A stretch of 64,000 nucleotides of DNA from Labilibacter sediminis (GTDB lineage Bacteria > Bacteroidota > Bacteroidia > Bacteroidales > Marinilabiliaceae), in the NCBI RefSeq assembly GCF_005877885.1, contig NZ_VCHY01000007.1:186001-250000 (forward strand), read 5' to 3'. Of this stretch, positions 5,121-18,484 are shown in pieces. The position numbers and the translations under genes were made by a program. Each line of letters starts with the position of its first letter. Position 1 is the stretch's first letter. The notes under the pieces were generated by a model, which saw only the letters and a program-made list of their open reading frames with translations, ran no database searches and was not told the DNA's origin.

Positions 5121-5174
5121 AAAATGACCAAATAAAAAACTCTCACCTGGTCAGATCTTTAAAAAGAAAAGGTA

Positions 5175-7001
5175 TCAAATATCGGTAATTAGCGTATCTT
5201 TTGCTTTTTCATGTAATAAAGATGTTGAACTTGATACCTCACTTACGGCATAAGCAACTTCTTCTGCAATCTTATTGGTTTTCTCAAATTGCTCAAATGC
5301 AACATTCACTTTCCGGGAAATACTATCAAGGGCCACTTTCATCGTATTCAAATAGGGCAATATCTTAACAGCTTCTCCACCTGAATTAATCGCTAACTTT
5401 TTTACTTCGGTAGCAACTACGCCAAATCCTTTGCCGGCCTCACCTGCTCTTGCTGCTTCAACGGCGGCATTCAAAGCTAAAATATTTGTTTGTTCCGAAA
5501 TATTCTTAATTGTATCTACAATCTTAACAAACTCATCAATTACATTTAAATCCTTATTCACACTATCTACAACCAGCTTAAAATCGGAATTAATTACTCT
5601 TGATGATCGGTCTAAATCTTTAACTTTTACATTAATAGAGTTAACCTGTCTATCAATCTCTTCAATAGCTACTGAAACAGTATTCCCTACTTCAACCAAT
5701 GTATCTTGTATATAATGATGGCAATTCTCTTTCCTGTTAAGATTGTTATATATTGCTATTGCCATATCTTCACAACTACCATAACCACATGAATTACAAT
5801 TATAAAAATCTTTCTCTTTATTTTTATTCATTGACCGGTATACACCTTCTAATTCACTGGACGATATTTTTTTTATAATGTTATTCCCTGATAAATTTTC
5901 ATATTTCCTACCATAAAGATCCTTCTTCCAATATTTATCAATTGTTCGCTTTAACTTCTTTTTGCCAAGAAATCGTTTAATTGATGAATTATTCATATTG
6001 TACTTAGCCAGCATCTCGTTTTTCCTCTTCTCTACAAAAAACTCAACTTCATCTAGTGATTTTTCTCTGTTCTGAGTTCCCGGCCCGCCATTACATCCCA
6101 TATGGCAATTCAGGCAATCAACTAATAACGGAGCTCGCTTTGCTTCTATCTCTGCACCCAAATGATCAAGGTATTTGTATATAACATCTGTACCCTCTAT
6201 TTTCCTTGTCTGTGTACCAATGGATGGGACTTCCCGCTCTACTGTACGAAGCAATCCCCCTGGTGATGAAAACAATACAGCCCTTTCTGCCGGAGGATTA
6301 TCGTAGTCAAGTGCCGGATAAGACTTCAAATCTATCCTTTTCTCATCAATAAGGTTTTGCAACGATTTCATGGTAACATTGTAATCACCCAAACCCGTTT
6401 CCTGAAATTCACGCTTCTTGGCAAGACAGGGAGACACAACCATAACCTTATGTTTTTTATACTCCGGATAAAATTCCTTAATCATTTTTACCGTATGTAA
6501 CATTGGACTATCAGCAGGAGCTAAATACTTAATTAACTCAGGTTTATATACCTGAACATAGGTAACAATTGCAGGACAAGGTTGTGTAATTACACACTTG
6601 GGCTTATTTTCTTTTATATGTTTCAAATAAGATTCTGCAGCCAATTCCGCACCAAAGCTAACATCAAAAATTGCCTCAATTCCCCAACTCTTCAGAAGAC
6701 CGTTAACATGCATATATTGCTCCGGAAAATTTGCAGCTATCGCCGGGGCAACAATAGCAACAATTTTAACACCCTTATTTACATCATCACAAAACTGTAC
6801 CATATCATCCTCATACACTCTCGCATCATGCGTACAAGCATCAATACAACTACCACAACCAATACACATATTGGGATTTACCGATACATAGTTACTACTA
6901 CCATCGTTGCAAAACTTTACCGGGCAGGCAGCAATGCAGGCATGACAATTAATACATTTTTCCTTATCGACAGAAAAGGTACCACTAAGTTCTTTATTCA
7001 T
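5175..7001 (-). CDS. Fused 4Fe-4S ferredoxin / [FeFe]-hydrogenase-like / chemoreceptor signalling protein
   Basis: Soluble 608-residue multidomain protein. Residues 1-65 carry two 4Fe-4S motifs ([23 protein letters not shown]). Residues 75-315 are an [FeFe]-hydrogenase large-subunit domain: TQPCPA (Cys142), [10 protein letters not shown] (Cys192) and [11 protein letters not shown] (Cys299, Cys303) supply the four H-cluster ligands. The first Cys of the normal TSCCP motif, which relays protons in catalytic enzymes, is Pro141. Residues 400-430 add a C-x2-C-x4-C-x16-C Fe-S domain (402, 405, 410, 427). Residues 435-608 form a chemoreceptor hairpin with the conserved tip [20 protein letters not shown]. 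There are no membrane helices. I infer a redox or H2 sensor that talks to a chemotaxis-like kinase rather than a bulk hydrogenase. The gene stands alone. Confidence 0.85.
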
Positions 7002-11994: not shown

Positions 11995-14562
11995 ATGAAA
12001 CGAAAAGGGCTCTTATTAAAAACCAACATCTATCTTCTTTCTGCAGTAGCCCTTACGTTATTGCTCACTTTTACCATCATTAGCATAAGGACAACATCAT
12101 TAGCCAGAACTAAGGCCAAAGAAATGGCAGGACTAAAGGCTCGAAAAGTAGCTTCGGATGTGCGTAGCTATCTGAATCAGACGATGGAAACCAACAAAAC
12201 ACTGGCCATTACAATACAAAGCCTTCATCAGGATAAAATATTAACCAGGCAAATGATGGCCAACATATTACGCGACCTTCTAATCAATAACAAACATATT
12301 TATGCCACATGGACCATGTGGGAAGCCAATGCCTTTGATGGTAAAGATGCCCTTTATGCCCGGAAACATAATCAGATTCATGGTCGTTTTGCCTGCTCTT
12401 ATTATCGTGTTAATGATACCCTGATCAAACAAAATTTTGGTAACGATAGTGCTCCTGCATATTTAAGTAGTGACTTATTATACGAATATGAAGATGATTA
12501 TTACCAAATAGCTATGACCCAAAAAGAGGAAGTCATTACTCCACCCTATTATTATAGCTTTACAAATGATTCAAACAACATGTACTACATGACTTCTCTT
12601 GTATCACCTATTTTTTTAGAAGATAAAGTAGCAGGTGTTGTAGCCACAGATATAAACCTGGAAGAACTTCAAACAATCGTTTTGAAATCGTCTATTTATA
12701 AAACCGGCTTTGCTGCTATAGTGGCCAATAATTTTAAAATGGTTGCACATCCTACTGCTGATTATATCGAGAAACATATTACTAACTTGTATGGATCTGT
12801 AGGGTATCAAATTTCAAATGCTATTAAAAATGATCGTCCATATAGTTATCAAACTATTTCAGAGCTTGATGGCAAAAAAGTAATTCGATACTTTTATCCG
12901 GTACTTATCAGAGATGTTAAAATCCCTTGGGCAGTGATGGTTGAAATACCTTCTGATGAAATTTTTAATGATGCACAAAACCTTTCGATCTTAATCATTA
13001 TTATTGGTATTGTTGGATTCATTATCATCACACTTATCATCTATAATATCATAAAAAACATAACTAAACCCATTGGTCAGGTAGTTAAACTAGCACAAAA
13101 CATTTCAATGGGTAAATTACAAGATCCTCCCGGCATGCCACTACCAGCACTCGAAATAAAGGAACTTCATCAGGCATTAAAGTTAATGGTTGAGAAACTT
13201 AAAATGATGCAAGAAATTTTATTATTGGGAACCTGGGAATTAGACATTAAAACACTGAACATGAATTGGTCTGATGGACTATTTAGATTATTTGGTTTTA
13301 ACCCTCACGACTTTTTCCCGGATCTAAACATTTTATTGGAAAAAATACATCCTGAAGATCAAGACTCTATTGGCAAACTCTTTAATACCAGTGCCCGTAA
13401 CAATAGTCATCATATCGATCATCGTTTTAAAATCATACATGCAGATAAAACAGTTCGACATATGCTTATGCGATGCGGTGCAGTAAGTGACCAAAGTGGT
13501 AACATTCAAAAGAAAATTGGAGTGATGCTCGACATCACTGCTTTAACCCAAAATGAGGAAAACTTAAAAGAAAGTGAAGCAAAGTTCAGAAATATATTCG
13601 ATAGCAGTAATGATGCCATTCTAATTGTAAATACTGATGGTAATTTTATAGATGCCAACAAAACTGCTTTTATCAGAAGTGGGTTAAGCCGTGAAGAGCT
13701 ATTAGCCCATAATTACAAAGATTTCCTATCAAAAGATCCTGATAACAAAGACCTTCAATACAAAGAAGCTCTATTCAATGGCATTGATACCCGTTTTGAA
13801 ACCAAGTACACCAATGCTTATGGCCAAACTATTCACATTGAAGTGAATGGACAAGCCATGAAATACAAGGGGAAAGACTCTTTTGTGCTTATTTCGCGGG
13901 ATATCACTGAAAGGAAAGAAGCCGGTAAGCGTATTATACAGGCCATAGTGCAAACAGAAGAAGATGAAAGAGGCCGGTTTGCCAGAGAGCTGCATGACGG
14001 GGTATCTCCTATATTGTCTGCCATTAAGCTGTATGCCAATGCCATTACGGACAACAGCTCGAAGGAATTTCAAGGTAAAATCACTAAAAAGATCATTTCT
14101 GCTGTTGATGAGGCCATACAAGGTATTTACGATATCTCCAATAATCTAACACCACATGTGTTGCAAAACTTTGGTTTTAAAACAGCTTTGGAAACGTTCA
14201 TTAAAAAAATTGAGGAGTCTACTTCAATCATTTTTGAGGTTCAATATCATCTCAACAAAAGACACGATAATACCATTGAAGTTACACTTTATCGTCTGGC
14301 CACCGAATTAATAAATAACACCATTAAATATGCCAATGCCAGCCAGGTAACTATTTCCTTAACAGAAAACGAAATGGTGGAATTCCATTATGCTGATAAT
14401 GGCTGCGGCTTTAACAAGGAAGAAGCAAAAGACAACAAAACCAGTACGGGATTGTTTAACTTAACCAATAGGGTGCAATCTTTAGACGGACAAATAAACA
14501 TTACCAGCTCACCGGGCCATGGAATGAACTTAGATGCTAAAATTCCAATTCCTAAAAAATGA
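11995..14562 (+). CDS. Membrane sensor histidine kinase with Cache, HAMP and PAS domains
   Basis: 855-residue sensor kinase. Residues 12-32 and about 335-355 are membrane helices enclosing a large Cache-type extracellular sensor. HAMP (about 355-405), two PAS domains (about 410-525 and 530-650), a HisKA_3 dimer domain with phospho-acceptor His667 (ELHDGVSP) and an HATPase domain ending the protein follow. This is the NarX/DegS-like class. Its stop overlaps the start of the next gene (ATGA), a NarL-type regulator that is its obvious partner. The sensor domain closely resembles that of the chemoreceptor at 16556-18484 (YATWTMWEANAFDGKD versus [16 protein letters not shown]). The ligand is unknown. 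Confidence 0.93.
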   Translation: MKRKGLLLKTNIYLLSAVALTLLLTFTIISIRTTSLARTKAKEMAGLKARKVASDVRSYLNQTMETNKTLAITIQSLHQDKILTRQMMANILRDLLINNKHIYATWTMWEANAFDGKDALYARKHNQIHGRFACSYYRVNDTLIKQNFGNDSAPAYLSSDLLYEYEDDYYQIAMTQKEEVITPPYYYSFTNDSNNMYYMTSLVSPIFLEDKVAGVVATDINLEELQTIVLKSSIYKTGFAAIVANNFKMVAHPTADYIEKHITNLYGSVGYQISNAIKNDRPYSYQTISELDGKKVIRYFYPVLIRDVKIPWAVMVEIPSDEIFNDAQNLSILIIIIGIVGFIIITLIIYNIIKNITKPIGQVVKLAQNISMGKLQDPPGMPLPALEIKELHQALKLMVEKLKMMQEILLLGTWELDIKTLNMNWSDGLFRLFGFNPHDFFPDLNILLEKIHPEDQDSIGKLFNTSARNNSHHIDHRFKIIHADKTVRHMLMRCGAVSDQSGNIQKKIGVMLDITALTQNEENLKESEAKFRNIFDSSNDAILIVNTDGNFIDANKTAFIRSGLSREELLAHNYKDFLSKDPDNKDLQYKEALFNGIDTRFETKYTNAYGQTIHIEVNGQAMKYKGKDSFVLISRDITERKEAGKRIIQAIVQTEEDERGRFARELHDGVSPILSAIKLYANAITDNSSKEFQGKITKKIISAVDEAIQGIYDISNNLTPHVLQNFGFKTALETFIKKIEESTSIIFEVQYHLNKRHDNTIEVTLYRLATELINNTIKYANASQVTISLTENEMVEFHYADNGCGFNKEEAKDNKTSTGLFNLTNRVQSLDGQINITSSPGHGMNLDAKIPIPKK

Positions 14563-15212
14563 AAAAGAAAATAACCATATCCATTGTTGACGATCATGAG
14601 CTTTTTTGCGATGGTCTGGAAGTTGTTATTTCTCAAATTAAGGACTTTAAACTCATTAGCAAAGCCTCCAATGGTAAAATTTTTCTTGAACAATTAGAAA
14701 CCATCGAGCCCGATGTGGTTTTAATGGACATCAACATGCCTGTTTTAGATGGAATACAAACAACAACACTGGCATTACAGAAATACCCTCAACTAAAGGT
14801 AATTACCTTATCTAGTTATGGTGATGAAGTGTATTACTATAAAATGATAAAAGCAGGAGCCTTTGGTTTTGTACAGAAAAAAAGTGGTAAGAAAGAACTG
14901 GAAACCGCCATCCGATCTGTAATGGATGGTATTAACTTTTTCCCGCATAACCTAATGCACAAAATAATATTCAAGGTGAGTAACAAAGCAGAAGGTTCAA
15001 CAACAAACATAAAAACTGAATTGTCTCGTCGCGAAAAAGAAGTACTGCTATTAGTCTGCAAGGGTTATTCGAACAAAGAAATTGCCGAAAAATTATTTAT
15101 CAGTCCTAATACAGTTGAAAATCACCGCAGTAATCTACTTTCAAAAACAGGTGCACGCAATGCTGCCCACCTCGTTTTCCAAGCCATCAAAGATGGTTTG
15201 ATAGAGCTTTAA
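14559..15212 (+). CDS. NarL/LuxR-type response regulator
   Basis: 217-residue two-domain response regulator. The receiver has acidic residues DD 11-12 and phospho-acceptor Asp57 (VVLMDINMP). The C-terminal LuxR helix-turn-helix is seen in LSRREKEVLLLVCKGYSN and NTVENHRSNLLSKTG. It overlaps the kinase gene by 4 bp, so translational coupling and a cognate pair are very likely. The target genes may be the nearby outer membrane protein or chemoreceptor genes; this is inference. Confidence 0.95.
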   Translation: MKKKITISIVDDHELFCDGLEVVISQIKDFKLISKASNGKIFLEQLETIEPDVVLMDINMPVLDGIQTTTLALQKYPQLKVITLSSYGDEVYYYKMIKAGAFGFVQKKSGKKELETAIRSVMDGINFFPHNLMHKIIFKVSNKAEGSTTNIKTELSRREKEVLLLVCKGYSNKEIAEKLFISPNTVENHRSNLLSKTGARNAAHLVFQAIKDGLIEL

Positions 15213-15257
15213 TTACCCCCTGTTTTATTAAATAAACAGTAAAGAAATAACAATAAA

Positions 15258-15273
15258 TAGTGGAAAACCACTA
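15258..15273. other. Small hairpin between two response regulator genes
   Basis: TAGTGG-AAAA-CCACTA forms a perfect 6-bp stem in the 132-bp gap. No T-run follows, so it does not look like a terminator. It could be a regulator half-site pair. Confidence 0.3.
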
Positions 15274-15317
15274 ATTAAAAGGGTACAATAGGTCATGTAC
15301 AGCAATTAGGTGTGTAC

Positions 15318-15325
15318 TAATTTTG
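15318..15325 (+). promoter_or_regulatory. Putative -7 promoter box for the receiver-only gene
   Basis: TAATTTTG fits TAnnTTTG, 20 bp before the start codon. No clear -33 element. Confidence 0.35.
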
Positions 15326-15344
15326 CTCCATAACTAAAACAGGA

Positions 15345-15746
15345 ATGGACAAGCTTAACATTATTGTAGTTGATGATCATGCTACTTTTCGGGATGGTAT
15401 TTCATTTTATCTTGAGGAGATATTAGGTTATAATGTTATTGCCCAATACAGCAATGGGAAGGAGTTTCTTGAATCTAAACTTATTCCGGTAGCCGATTTC
15501 ATTTTAATGGATATTCAAATGCCGGTCATGAATGGTTTTGAAGCCATAAAAAAAGCCCTTTGGAAACATCCATATATAAAAGTAATTGCCATCACCAACT
15601 ACAGTCATAACACGCATCTGCGAGAATTAATATTAAACGGATTTAAAGGATGCGTACTGAAAGACAATGTATACGAAAACCTTAAGACTGCCATTGCTGA
15701 TGTATCAAAAGGTAAAGTTCACTTTAATGACAATATAAATTTTTAA
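15345..15746 (+). CDS. Single-domain response regulator (receiver only)
   Basis: 133-residue stand-alone receiver. It keeps the acidic pair DD (10-11), phospho-acceptor Asp56 (FILMDIQMP), the conserved Thr/Asn region (AITNYSH) and Lys near 106 (GCVLKDN). The N-terminal part resembles NarL receivers (VVDDHATFRDGISFYL), but the DNA-binding domain is absent. It may be a truncated NarL paralogue turned CheY-like, or a phosphate sink for the neighbouring kinase. The stop codon is clean and no HTH remnant follows before the next gene. Confidence 0.88.
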   Translation: MDKLNIIVVDDHATFRDGISFYLEEILGYNVIAQYSNGKEFLESKLIPVADFILMDIQMPVMNGFEAIKKALWKHPYIKVIAITNYSHNTHLRELILNGFKGCVLKDNVYENLKTAIADVSKGKVHFNDNINF

Positions 15747-15793
15747 TCCTGCCTGCCTCAAACTGACAACATTAACTATAACACAACTAATTA

Positions 15794-16522
15794 ATGATGA
15801 CTTCTTTACTATTAAACAAGCTTAGAATTAATATTCTATTGCTCTTGTTTGCTTTAACACAACTAACACAAGCACAAGAGCCCAAAGCTACAATAGACTT
15901 TGGTGGAGAACTGACAAACAGATATGTTTGGCGCGGACTAAACTTAACACGATCTCCAGGTGTACATCCCTACATTGAATTAACGACGGGCAATTGGTTA
16001 TTTGGAACATGGGGAACATATACATTTGAAAAGTCACCCTACCAGGAAGTAGACCTGTATGTTTCATACACAGCCGGAATTTTTAACTTCACTCTTTTTG
16101 ATTACTTTGTAGCAAGTGATTCATTAATGGTCAATGGTAATTATTTCGACTATTCTTCACTTGATTCTCCACATGCCATAGAGGCTATTTTAACCATATC
16201 AGACATTCCTGATTTACCAATTACCTTCACTGCGGCTACTTTTATTTTCGGTAACGACTATAACTCGGAAGGAGATAGAGCTTTTTCAACCTATCTTGAG
16301 CTTGGTTATGATTTTGCTATAGGCGATCAACCATTATATACTTTTGCCGGTGTAACAACACACGAGGGTTTGTATGCCGATGGTTTTAAATGCACCAATA
16401 TAGGATTATCAACAAGTAAAGACTTTACAATTACTGAAAACCTATCAATCCCTCTAACTGCTTCTCTTATTCTTAACCCCGATGCAGAAAACCTGTTTCT
16501 GATTTTAGGGCTTTCATTTTAA
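15794..16522 (+). CDS. Putative outer membrane porin, TorF/Gcw_chp-like
   Basis: 242-residue secreted protein with a signal peptide ending at LTQAQ (about residue 27). The opening after cleavage, FGGELTNRYVWRGLNLT, is characteristic of the TorF/Gcw_chp family of outer membrane barrels of unknown function. Alternating strands and a C-terminal FLILGLSF strand support a barrel. It sits inside the signalling cluster, 33 bp upstream of the chemoreceptor gene, and may bring in or signal the ligand sensed by the Cache domains. That link is inference from position only. Confidence 0.7.
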   Translation: MMTSLLLNKLRINILLLLFALTQLTQAQEPKATIDFGGELTNRYVWRGLNLTRSPGVHPYIELTTGNWLFGTWGTYTFEKSPYQEVDLYVSYTAGIFNFTLFDYFVASDSLMVNGNYFDYSSLDSPHAIEAILTISDIPDLPITFTAATFIFGNDYNSEGDRAFSTYLELGYDFAIGDQPLYTFAGVTTHEGLYADGFKCTNIGLSTSKDFTITENLSIPLTASLILNPDAENLFLILGLSF

Positions 16523-16555
16523 TGTTTTTCCAACGTATAGATATTCGAGTTAATC

Positions 16556-18484
16556 ATGAAAAAAATAAGTTTAAAAGTTAAATTAAACATATACATTCTC
16601 TCCGCATTTTTTATGGTATTTGGTATTACCATGATCATTATAATTACAAGCGCCAGAGAAAAATCGAACGAACACGCCATGAGTGTAGCTGATTTAAAAG
16701 GAAAAGAAGTAGCCTCCAATGTAAAAAACTACTTCGATTATGCTACACAATCATCTAAAACCCTGGTTCAATCCATTATGGCTTTAAAAAAAGAGAACCA
16801 TACTTCACGAGAGCTGGTTATTGAAATGATGGAGCAGGTATTAAAAGAAAATGATAGTTACTATGCAGTTTGGACCATGTGGGAATTAAACGGCTTTGAT
16901 GCAAAAGACCATGAGTACGCCAAACAATATAACTTAGAGTTAGGATTATTTAATGGTTCTGTTTTTAGAGAAGGAAATAAAATTGCAAAACAAAACTATG
17001 GAGATGAAGAATCACCCAACTACGTGAGTTATGACGATGAAGAATATGGAGAAACCTATTATACCGGATCAAAAAACACAAAACAAATTTACATTGATGA
17101 TCCATCGGAATATAGTTTTACGGGAAAAGAAGAAGATATGGTAAGCTCTACCTCTGTAGTTGCTCCTGTGTTAAAAGACAACCAGTTTTTAGGTGTAATT
17201 GGTATCGATATTGACTTTGAAACACTAATGCAGCTTAATGCACAAACTAATGTTTATGAAAGTGGATTTTCTGCCATTATTACTAACAATCATATTATTT
17301 CGGCACACCCTAACGAAGCGTATCAGGGTAATTCAATAGACACCATATTAAGTGACTACAACAAAGAGTTGGAAAAAGCTATAAACAAAGGAGAATCATA
17401 TTCATATCAAACAGTATCTGAATATACCAACAAAGAAGTACTAAGGATATTTTCGCCGGTAGCCATTGGCAACCCTGACATGCCATGGTCAGTAATGATA
17501 GAAATTCCGATGGAAGAAATTATGGCAGAAGCCAGAACCACCACTAAGATTATACTAACCATAGGTTTAATCAGCATACTTATCATGTTTGGTATCGTTT
17601 TGCTTATCTCTCGAAACATCACTCGTCCCATTATAAGTATTGTTGATGTTATGCAGGAAATTGCCAAAGGAAATATTGGCGTAGATATACAGCAATCAAA
17701 CCGTGAAGATGAAATAGGCATTTTAGAAAACTCCCTTAAAAACATGGTACAAAAACTTACTGAAGTTGTAAAAAGTATTATTGAAGGAGCCAGCAATATT
17801 AGTGCAGCCAGCGAACAGTTTACAGGGGTGGCTGAACAGATTTCGCAGGGAGCAAATGAGCAGGCCGCATCTGTCGAAGAAGTATCCTCAACAACTGAAG
17901 AGATAGCTGCAAACATTGAACAAAACACCGATAATGCCCAGCAAACGGAAAAGATATCATCCCTTGCACAAAAGGGAATTCAGGAAGTTACTGAACAAGC
18001 AGTGAAAACACTGGATGCCACCCGTATTATCTCAGACAAAATACAGGTGATTAATGATATTGCATTTCAAACCAATATACTAGCGCTTAATGCTGCTGTT
18101 GAAGCGGCCAGAGCTGGCGAACATGGAAGAGGGTTTGCTGTTGTAGCCAGCGAAGTACGCAAACTTGCCGAAAACAGTCGTGCTGCTGCTGATCAGATTA
18201 TAACCATGGCACAGGACACTTTAGGCTTGGCAGAAAACACAGGCAATCAGTTAACCGAAATGTTACCGGAAATAGAAAAAACTACTCACCTTGTTCAGGA
18301 AATTTCATCAGCCAGTCAGGAACAGAGCAGTGCAACCAACCAGGTAAACAGTGCCATTCAGGAATTAAATAACATTACACAGGAAAACTCTTCTGCTGCT
18401 GAAGAACTTGCTTCAAGTGCTGAAGAATTGGCTTCTCAGGCTGTTGGATTAAAGGATATGGTTTCCTTTTTTAGGATTGGCTAG
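16556..18484 (+). CDS. Methyl-accepting chemotaxis protein with Cache sensor
   Basis: 642-residue transmembrane chemoreceptor. It has membrane helices near 10-30 and 325-350, a Cache sensor between them, HAMP (about 345-400) and a long signalling coiled coil with the conserved tip [20 protein letters not shown]. Gln/Glu-rich methylation-type helices flank the tip ([38 protein letters not shown]). Its sensor is paralogous to the histidine kinase at 11995-14562. No cheA, cheW, cheR or cheB is in the window, so the downstream machinery must lie elsewhere. It could steer gliding or control a non-motility output. Confidence 0.93.

Follow-up and report, generated by a model that had tools for sequence, protein, structure and literature searches.

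What does an [FeFe]-hydrogenase domain do when it is carried, in one soluble chain, by a chemoreceptor? The question is raised by a gene in the window analysed here, a stretch of 64,000 nucleotides (64 kb, without any N) from Labilibacter sediminis, for whose product an earlier note had proposed a soluble sensor that signals to a CheA-like kinase and is probably no catalyst. This proposal is supported by a proline at the proton-relay position throughout the family, and by the presence of hydE, hydF, hydG, cheA and cheW in the genome, as detailed below.

Domain architecture and genetic setting

5175..7001, minus strand: H-cluster-domain chemoreceptor gene, 608 aa, ATG start, stop codon included (ORF listing and Pfam)
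6822..6971, minus strand: N-terminal two-[4Fe-4S] ferredoxin domain, residues 11-60 (Pfam Fer4 / Fer4_10)
6081..6767, minus strand: [FeFe]-hydrogenase H-domain, residues 79-307 (Fe_hyd_lg_C and Foldseek)
5125..5153, minus strand: terminator-like hairpin with a T tail, directly 3' of the stop codon

The reading frames and Pfam profiles bear out the earlier description of a 608-residue protein with two ferredoxin motifs, an [FeFe] domain, a third Fe-S domain and a chemoreceptor hairpin, and place it on the minus strand, the plus strand of 5175..7001 containing many stops. The Pfam matches follow in the order ferredoxin pair (Fer4, E 2e-9), Fe_hyd_lg_C (residues 79-307, E 1e-34), PF04060 FeS (E 0.001, under the curated cut-off) and MCPsignal (residues 488-593, E 2e-25, 90 bits versus a cut-off of 34.6), and no Pfam match to a PAS domain was found in the protein. 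The best-scoring NCBIfam model, TIGR04105 FeFe_hydrog_B1, reaches 152.4 bits against a curated cut-off of 450. As previously proposed, there is no membrane anchor: no membrane segment was detected in the protein, the highest 19-residue hydropathy mean being 1.33, where the hydrogenase domain begins.

The gene probably stands alone as a single-gene transcript, since it is followed by the terminator-like hairpin (two such sites in the region versus a mean of 0.8 in shuffles) and the closest sizeable ORFs to either side sit on the opposite strand; none of the adjoining ORFs is a hydrogenase gene. Its G+C content (0.362) matches that of the window (0.365), 100 of 208 slices being no richer in G+C than the gene, and composition thus gives no sign of a recent foreign origin. 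An assembly join, which had been raised as a concern, is excluded, as is a chance fusion: unbroken proteins of this architecture, 46-65% identical over 36 aligned relatives, are encoded in independent genomes. Elsewhere in the window, the plus-strand interval 11995-18484 holds a PAS histidine kinase together with two ORFs resembling response regulators (11995-15746), and next an MCP with HAMP (16556-18484); the kinase and the HAMP-MCP both match dCache_1 just under the cut-off, and these genes possibly form one sensory cluster.

Conserved ligands and replaced proton relays

6576..6584, minus strand: L1 motif Q140-P141-C142, with the ligand C142 and a proline at the proton-relay position (invariant, 81/81)
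6408..6434, minus strand: L2 motif S190-P-C192-x-x-K195-x-x-E198 (alignment, 81 rows)
6093..6119, minus strand: L3 motif D295-C296-L297-N298-C299-x-x-G302-C303 (alignment, 81 rows)

The solved structures matched by the H-domain are [FeFe]-hydrogenases, both by sequence (best 60 of 102) and by fold (best 50 of 525); the best Foldseek match is CbA5H (E 3.7e-19), with CpI entries at about 1e-15. We aligned the protein with 80 relatives (81 rows), the best 80 of 502 by whole-query similarity in one genome-contig scan. The H-cluster cysteines C142, C192, C299 and C303 occur in 81/81 rows. The residue numbers given earlier, and the proline noted in place of the relay cysteine, were right. K195 (CpI K358), E198, D295 and L297 (CpI M497) are likewise found in all rows, and S190 (CpI M353) in 79/81; M353 and M497 are the methionine pair flanking the diiron site. 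In the ferredoxin domain, cysteines 16, 19, 22 and 26 are present in 80/81 rows (one gap), and 46, 49, 52 and 56 in 81/81. One further cysteine, C296 (window 6114-6116, minus strand), lies three residues before C299 (DCLNC) in 80/81 rows and is absent in the genome's six other H-domain proteins.

The residues that pass protons in characterized enzymes are, by contrast with these ligands, largely replaced. P141 occupies the position of the CpI relay cysteine C299 in 81/81 rows, and is therefore a trait of the family and not the decay of one copy; among sensory sequences this position is reported to hold cysteine in 17%, alanine in ~43% and proline in ~10% (passages of PMC10055695). Of the group A (catalytic) pathway, CpI E282 corresponds to S124, a Ser/Thr position in the family that is Glu in TamHydS (in the available passages on that enzyme), and E279 falls inside a 4-residue deletion. 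Relay C299, M353, M497 and the E279/E282 pair are all missing; S319 is retained as S165 (81/81). For group D, the relay proposed in passages of PMC10407848 consists of E252 with E289, S249 and D265. In our mapping of TamHydS, made via the CpI alignment and the group A valine named in those passages, E252 corresponds to L250, S249 to P247 and E289 to D295, each in 81/81 rows, and both relay glutamates of group D / M2e are thus replaced. In the genome's own group-A-like proteins, the group A valine lies in the same column as L250.

Judged from the alignment, the family lacks the residues at which protons would enter either published route (group A or D) and has kept those expected to hold the cofactor. 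A relay peculiar to the family might be formed from the invariant protonatable residues H169, E239 and R240. The conservation of the four ligands and of K195 and E198 is the sole argument for a [2Fe] unit, and the cysteines could hold a plain [4Fe-4S] cluster.

The third Fe-S motif and the signalling hairpin

5721..5798, minus strand: third Fe-S motif Cx2Cx4Cx16C, residues 402-427 (C402, C405, C410, C427)
5448..5720, minus strand: descending signalling helix, residues 428-518, beginning directly after C427 (AlphaFold2, mean pLDDT 90)
5424..5489, minus strand: conserved receptor tip, residues 505-526 (MCPsignal match)
5187..5444, minus strand: ascending signalling helices, residues 520-545 and 548-605 (AlphaFold2)

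The spacing 2-4-16 of the third motif is exact in 81/81 rows, and Pfam FeS is matched at E up to 0.01 in 80/80 relatives. Helix continuity from this motif to the tip is predicted by AlphaFold2, as it is in a Treponema relative (L100, mean pLDDT 84), where a helix (431-570) directly follows the last cysteine, C430. We take residues 505-526 to be the CheA/CheW contact region expected from Tsr. The arms are short, as had been stated: C427 and the tip residue E521 are 94 residues apart, and a further 87 lead to the C terminus. The 2-4-16 spacing of the third motif also characterizes the M2e and M2f subclasses, for which a signalling part has been suggested (passages of PMC8163306).

The distance from C427 to the tip asparagine N511 is 84 residues, or 12 heptads, and in L100 the descending arm is seven heptads longer (133 versus 84 residues). 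We measured this distance across the family, starting from 89 rows, of which 14 without a recognisable tip were left out and 5 of the remaining 75 were duplicates. It is a multiple of seven in 48 of the 70 non-identical rows (in the raw rows the phase holds in 50/75 and fails in 25/75; with a stricter tip pattern, 45 of 63 measured rows are in phase). The in-phase lengths fall into seven classes (77, 84, 105, 119, 133, 140 and 147), and eleven other lengths are off phase, among them a Bacteroidota clade at 80, four residues shorter. A proline lies between the Fe-S domain and the tip in 14/75 rows.

As relatives share history, changes counted on the tree are a fairer measure than rows, whose binomials (down to 1e-24) are inflated by kinship. 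By an approximate parsimony count, the arm stays in phase through 9.1 of 27 changes of length, versus an expected 1 in 7 (binomial ~0.01), and a control linker inside the head, from C303 to C402, does so in 1.5 of 25. By rows, the commonest phase of the control linker accounts for 25/75, and it is the change counts alone that separate linker from arm. Variation of receptor arms in heptad steps is a general property of MCPs. The phasing seen in these sequences gives moderate support to a rigid cluster-to-rod connection, short of proof. Neither a strict methylation consensus (present in 27/75 rows) nor a C-terminal NWxxF-like CheR-docking pentapeptide (0/75 rows) was found in the 608-aa protein, so that adaptation may be absent.

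Occurrence among genomes and output domains

MCPsignal was found in 78 of the 80 relatives (39/40 and 39/40; best 80 of 502), a whole-query ranking that favours MCP-bearing proteins. The two relatives without it are L060, a broken frame that stops before the tip, with the tip in another frame, and L130, which has PAS and histidine-kinase domains at its C-terminal end. Two further proteins from other families of the order (G046 and G052) carry PAS repeats and a SpoIIE phosphatase output on a related head. The heads of L130, G046 and G052 form one supported branch (97), and this head therefore seems to have swapped one output for another.

In the tree, which was built quickly, leaves 31 branches open, has long outgroup rows and takes its labels from submitters' titles, mostly of MAGs, the named rows fall into 13 phylum-level groups; 35 rows are Spirochaetota, several of them titled Treponema, and the closest named relatives of the 608-aa gene belong to Bacteroidales and Marinilabiliaceae. 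One row labelled Alphaproteobacteria (L066) is near-identical to a Bacteroidales gene copy (L067) and probably comes from a mis-binned contig. Within its own genus the fusion is present in four of nine genomes (its own, G005, G006 and G008), with two copies in G008. The second G009 copy (L056:5732-7599, contig C9) is split in two frames and is a decaying paralogue or a sequencing error. A head-only query of 247 genomes drawn from the phylum recovered the family head in four, its own included, at E below 1e-200; three of these are MCP types (its own, G111 and G284) and the fourth (G220) is a 1349-aa frame. In this draw of 247 genomes, the H-domain chemoreceptor family is rare in the phylum.

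No HydA/B/C-like gene was found in the flanks of any of the 80 relatives (up to 5 kb a side, often shortened by contig ends); the HydA query recovers the sensor gene itself in 62/80, and is thus able to detect such genes. A role as regulator of an adjoining hydrogenase operon is therefore unlikely by position. Che-like genes in the same flanks number 5 for CheA, 1 for CheW, 7 for CheR, 0 for CheD, and 14 each for CheB and CheY, the last two counts including general response regulators. Among the Bacteroidota relatives, no conserved neighbourhood was seen by eye.

Maturation and chemosensory genes

L137:6241-8274: CheA (Hpt, HATPase_c and CheW domains; profile match)
L138:7846-9858: CheA (Hpt, HATPase_c and CheW domains; profile match)
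L137:8275-8733 and L137:8739-9221: CheW
L138:9910-10458: CheW

The genome (6.36 Mb) encodes HydE, HydF and HydG, all over their cut-offs, and seven Fe_hyd_lg_C proteins in all. Of the five CheW-domain matches, two lie within CheA proteins. One chemosensory locus comprises an MCP, a response regulator, Hpt, CheA, two CheW, CheR, CheD and CheB; the other comprises an MCP, CheA and CheW. The maturase and cheA/cheW genes on which the sensor proposal had been made to depend are thus present, with two cheA and three cheW accompanied by cheR, cheB and cheD. The flagellar gene searched, FliM, has no match in the genome and GldL is present, so that gliding, or a response other than motility, is the probable output. 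The receptor is thus provided with the maturases that it would require and with possible kinase partners, and has probably no flagellum to steer.

A group-A-like HydA of the same genome (L016:5301-7088, plus strand, contig C332) reads TSCSPGW, with serine (TCT) for the second cysteine of TSCCPGW, which is an H-cluster ligand in CpI; its neighbour hydA (L016:17218-18993) has the normal TSCCPGW. Between these two hydA genes sit two H-domain genes, with SpoIIE-type and HATPase genes between them: L016:7506-9359 (plus strand, 617 aa, contig C332), with alanine at the K358 position, histidine at the relay and a third Fe-S motif, and L016:11762-13132 (plus strand, 456 aa), with phenylalanine at the relay and a third Fe-S motif. 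Perhaps these are sensors linked to a phosphatase, with a changed H-site. On contig C231 (L017:4401-7317, plus strand), an H-domain protein precedes a SpoIIE phosphatase that has its own gene (C3-like) and adjoins a 482-aa hydrogenase with several ferredoxin motifs.

Relation to known sensory hydrogenases

The earlier note had regarded the direct chemoreceptor output as the unusual part of this protein, a view that does not hold, given the 78 MCPsignal-bearing proteins among the best 80 relatives and the entry of HydDB for [FeFe] group C2, 'Chemotactic (putative)', which may sense H2 and act through MCPs (passages of PMC5037454, with the same view repeated in those of PMC9431212); a review treats the sensory assignment of [FeFe] proteins as putative (passages of PMC8924675). 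Group C2 is defined there by a sequence-similarity cluster, and we liken the 608-aa protein to it by architecture and proposed function: a four-cysteine H-cluster domain is joined to an MCP output in the same chain, through which it would signal. Unlike the group as described, the family includes the branch with PAS-kinase (L130) and PAS-SpoIIE (G046, G052) outputs, so that output type and head lineage do not fully coincide.

In layout the protein also resembles TamHydS of Thermoanaerobacter mathranii (group D / M2e), which in the available passages has two N-terminal [4Fe-4S] clusters, an H-domain, a C-terminal Cx2Cx4Cx16C motif and no PAS, and which likewise has serine for M353, leucine for M497 and no relay cysteine (passages of PMC11803613). 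TamHydS differs, as far as these passages describe it, in having alanine and not proline at the relay position, in its glutamate relay (see above), and in a gene placed upstream of a bifurcating hydrogenase, whereas the 608-aa gene has no hydrogenase neighbours. TmHydS of Thermotoga maritima (group C / M2f) shares a sensory-type H-domain and a third Fe-S motif with a signalling domain after it (passages of PMC10055695 and PMC8163306), but has a PAS output, alanine at the relay, glycine for M353 and serine for M497; the fused PAS of that group is found here in G046, G052 and L130 and not in the 608-aa protein.

Compared with cytosolic MCPs, the protein has the MCPsignal domain with a canonical, conserved tip, the lack of a membrane anchor, and CheA and CheW in the genome, and differs in its input, a metal-cluster enzyme domain, in its short arms and in its lack of a strict methylation consensus. 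Ballor, Paulsen and Leadbetter reportedly described in 2012 [FeFe]-like sensors/transducers of termite-gut treponemes, possibly tied to methylation pathways and chemotaxis; these are alike in description, and Spirochaetota rows, as noted, are numerous in our tree. A purified MCP-linked [FeFe] sensory protein is not described in the open-licence literature passages. The chemoreceptor-fused [FeFe] domain is thus an established, putative class, to which the 608-aa protein adds a member and not a new class.

Proposed function and alternatives

On balance we favour a cytosolic chemoreceptor whose ligand-binding [FeFe]-hydrogenase head has turned from catalyst to sensor of H2 or redox state, a reading that we hold to be probable. 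HydE, HydF and HydG would place the [2Fe] part on C303, beside the [4Fe-4S] cluster held by C142, C192, C299 and C303, and the state of the H-cluster would be set by H2 binding, or by the redox poise delivered from the two N-terminal [4Fe-4S] clusters. The lack of the published proton relays would damp turnover. The change might then pass to the third Fe-S cluster (C402-C427), whose last ligand would cap the helix leading to the receptor tip, and a small rotation or shift at this cap could alter the hairpin and the activity, in either direction, of CheA and CheW bound to it, presumably with one of the two CheA as partner. In a Bacteroidota cell with GldL and no FliM match, the outcome would probably be gliding or some other response driven by CheA.

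The main rival is a simple sensor of the ferredoxin pool that either lacks the [2Fe] unit or makes no use of it; how reduced the pool is would be read at four predicted [4Fe-4S] sites, namely the two of ferredoxin type, the cluster of the H-domain and the third Fe-S motif. The near-complete loss of the published group A and D relays, the conservation of Fe-S ligands in at least 80/81 rows and the lack of HydA/B/C-like genes in the flanks of the 80 relatives all agree with it. Yet K195 and the bridging C303, which hold [2Fe] in catalytic enzymes, are kept in 81/81 rows, in contrast to the 617-aa Fe_hyd_lg_C protein of the same genome (contig C332) with its alanine at the lysine position; the maturases are present as well, though the genome's two group-A-like enzymes also need them. 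We therefore regard this reading as rather unlikely, if one to be taken seriously.

The same intact ligands, with S319 of group A retained, would suit a working hydrogenase with an incidental receptor tail, catalyst first and sensor second, and TmHydS and TamHydS are reported to retain low activity in spite of lacking the relay cysteine (passages of PMC10055695 and PMC11803613). With C299 and E282 of group A and E252 and S249 of group D replaced, E279 lost in a deletion, and the MCP tail kept throughout nearly all relatives, this strikes us as the least probable of the readings. Hardly more probable is a sensor of inhibitory gas (CO, or O2 damage), with the H-cluster as binding site and cells steered away: the H-cluster binds CO, and group C and D sensory enzymes show altered CO behaviour (passages of PMC11803613 and PMC8163306), but they are more tolerant of CO than catalytic enzymes, TamHydS having a low affinity for it (passages of PMC11803613 and PMC10407848), and no sequence feature of the protein points to CO.

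Returning to the H2 or redox receptor, we tentatively propose a joint scheme that goes further and is correspondingly doubtful. The last Fe-S ligand would cap the rod and convert the state of the cluster into motion of the coiled coil with neither PAS nor HAMP between them, arms varying in heptad steps would keep this junction in phase, and GldL-bearing, non-flagellate Bacteroidota might thereby steer gliding along gradients of H2 or redox state.

Implications

H2 is a main currency between anaerobes, and the family offers a compact, soluble, single-chain test object for how it is sensed. To the putative class already listed, the present analysis adds that the entries to both published relays are lost and the cofactor ligands fully kept, that the third cluster is predicted to lead directly into a helix that shows heptad phasing, and that outputs appear to have been swapped among related heads. 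With the published relays missing, the sequence of the head predicts little turnover; the short hairpin permits a CheA assay, and natural arm lengths in whole-heptad steps make the coupling idea directly testable. Closely related sensory heads bear chemoreceptor, kinase and phosphatase outputs.
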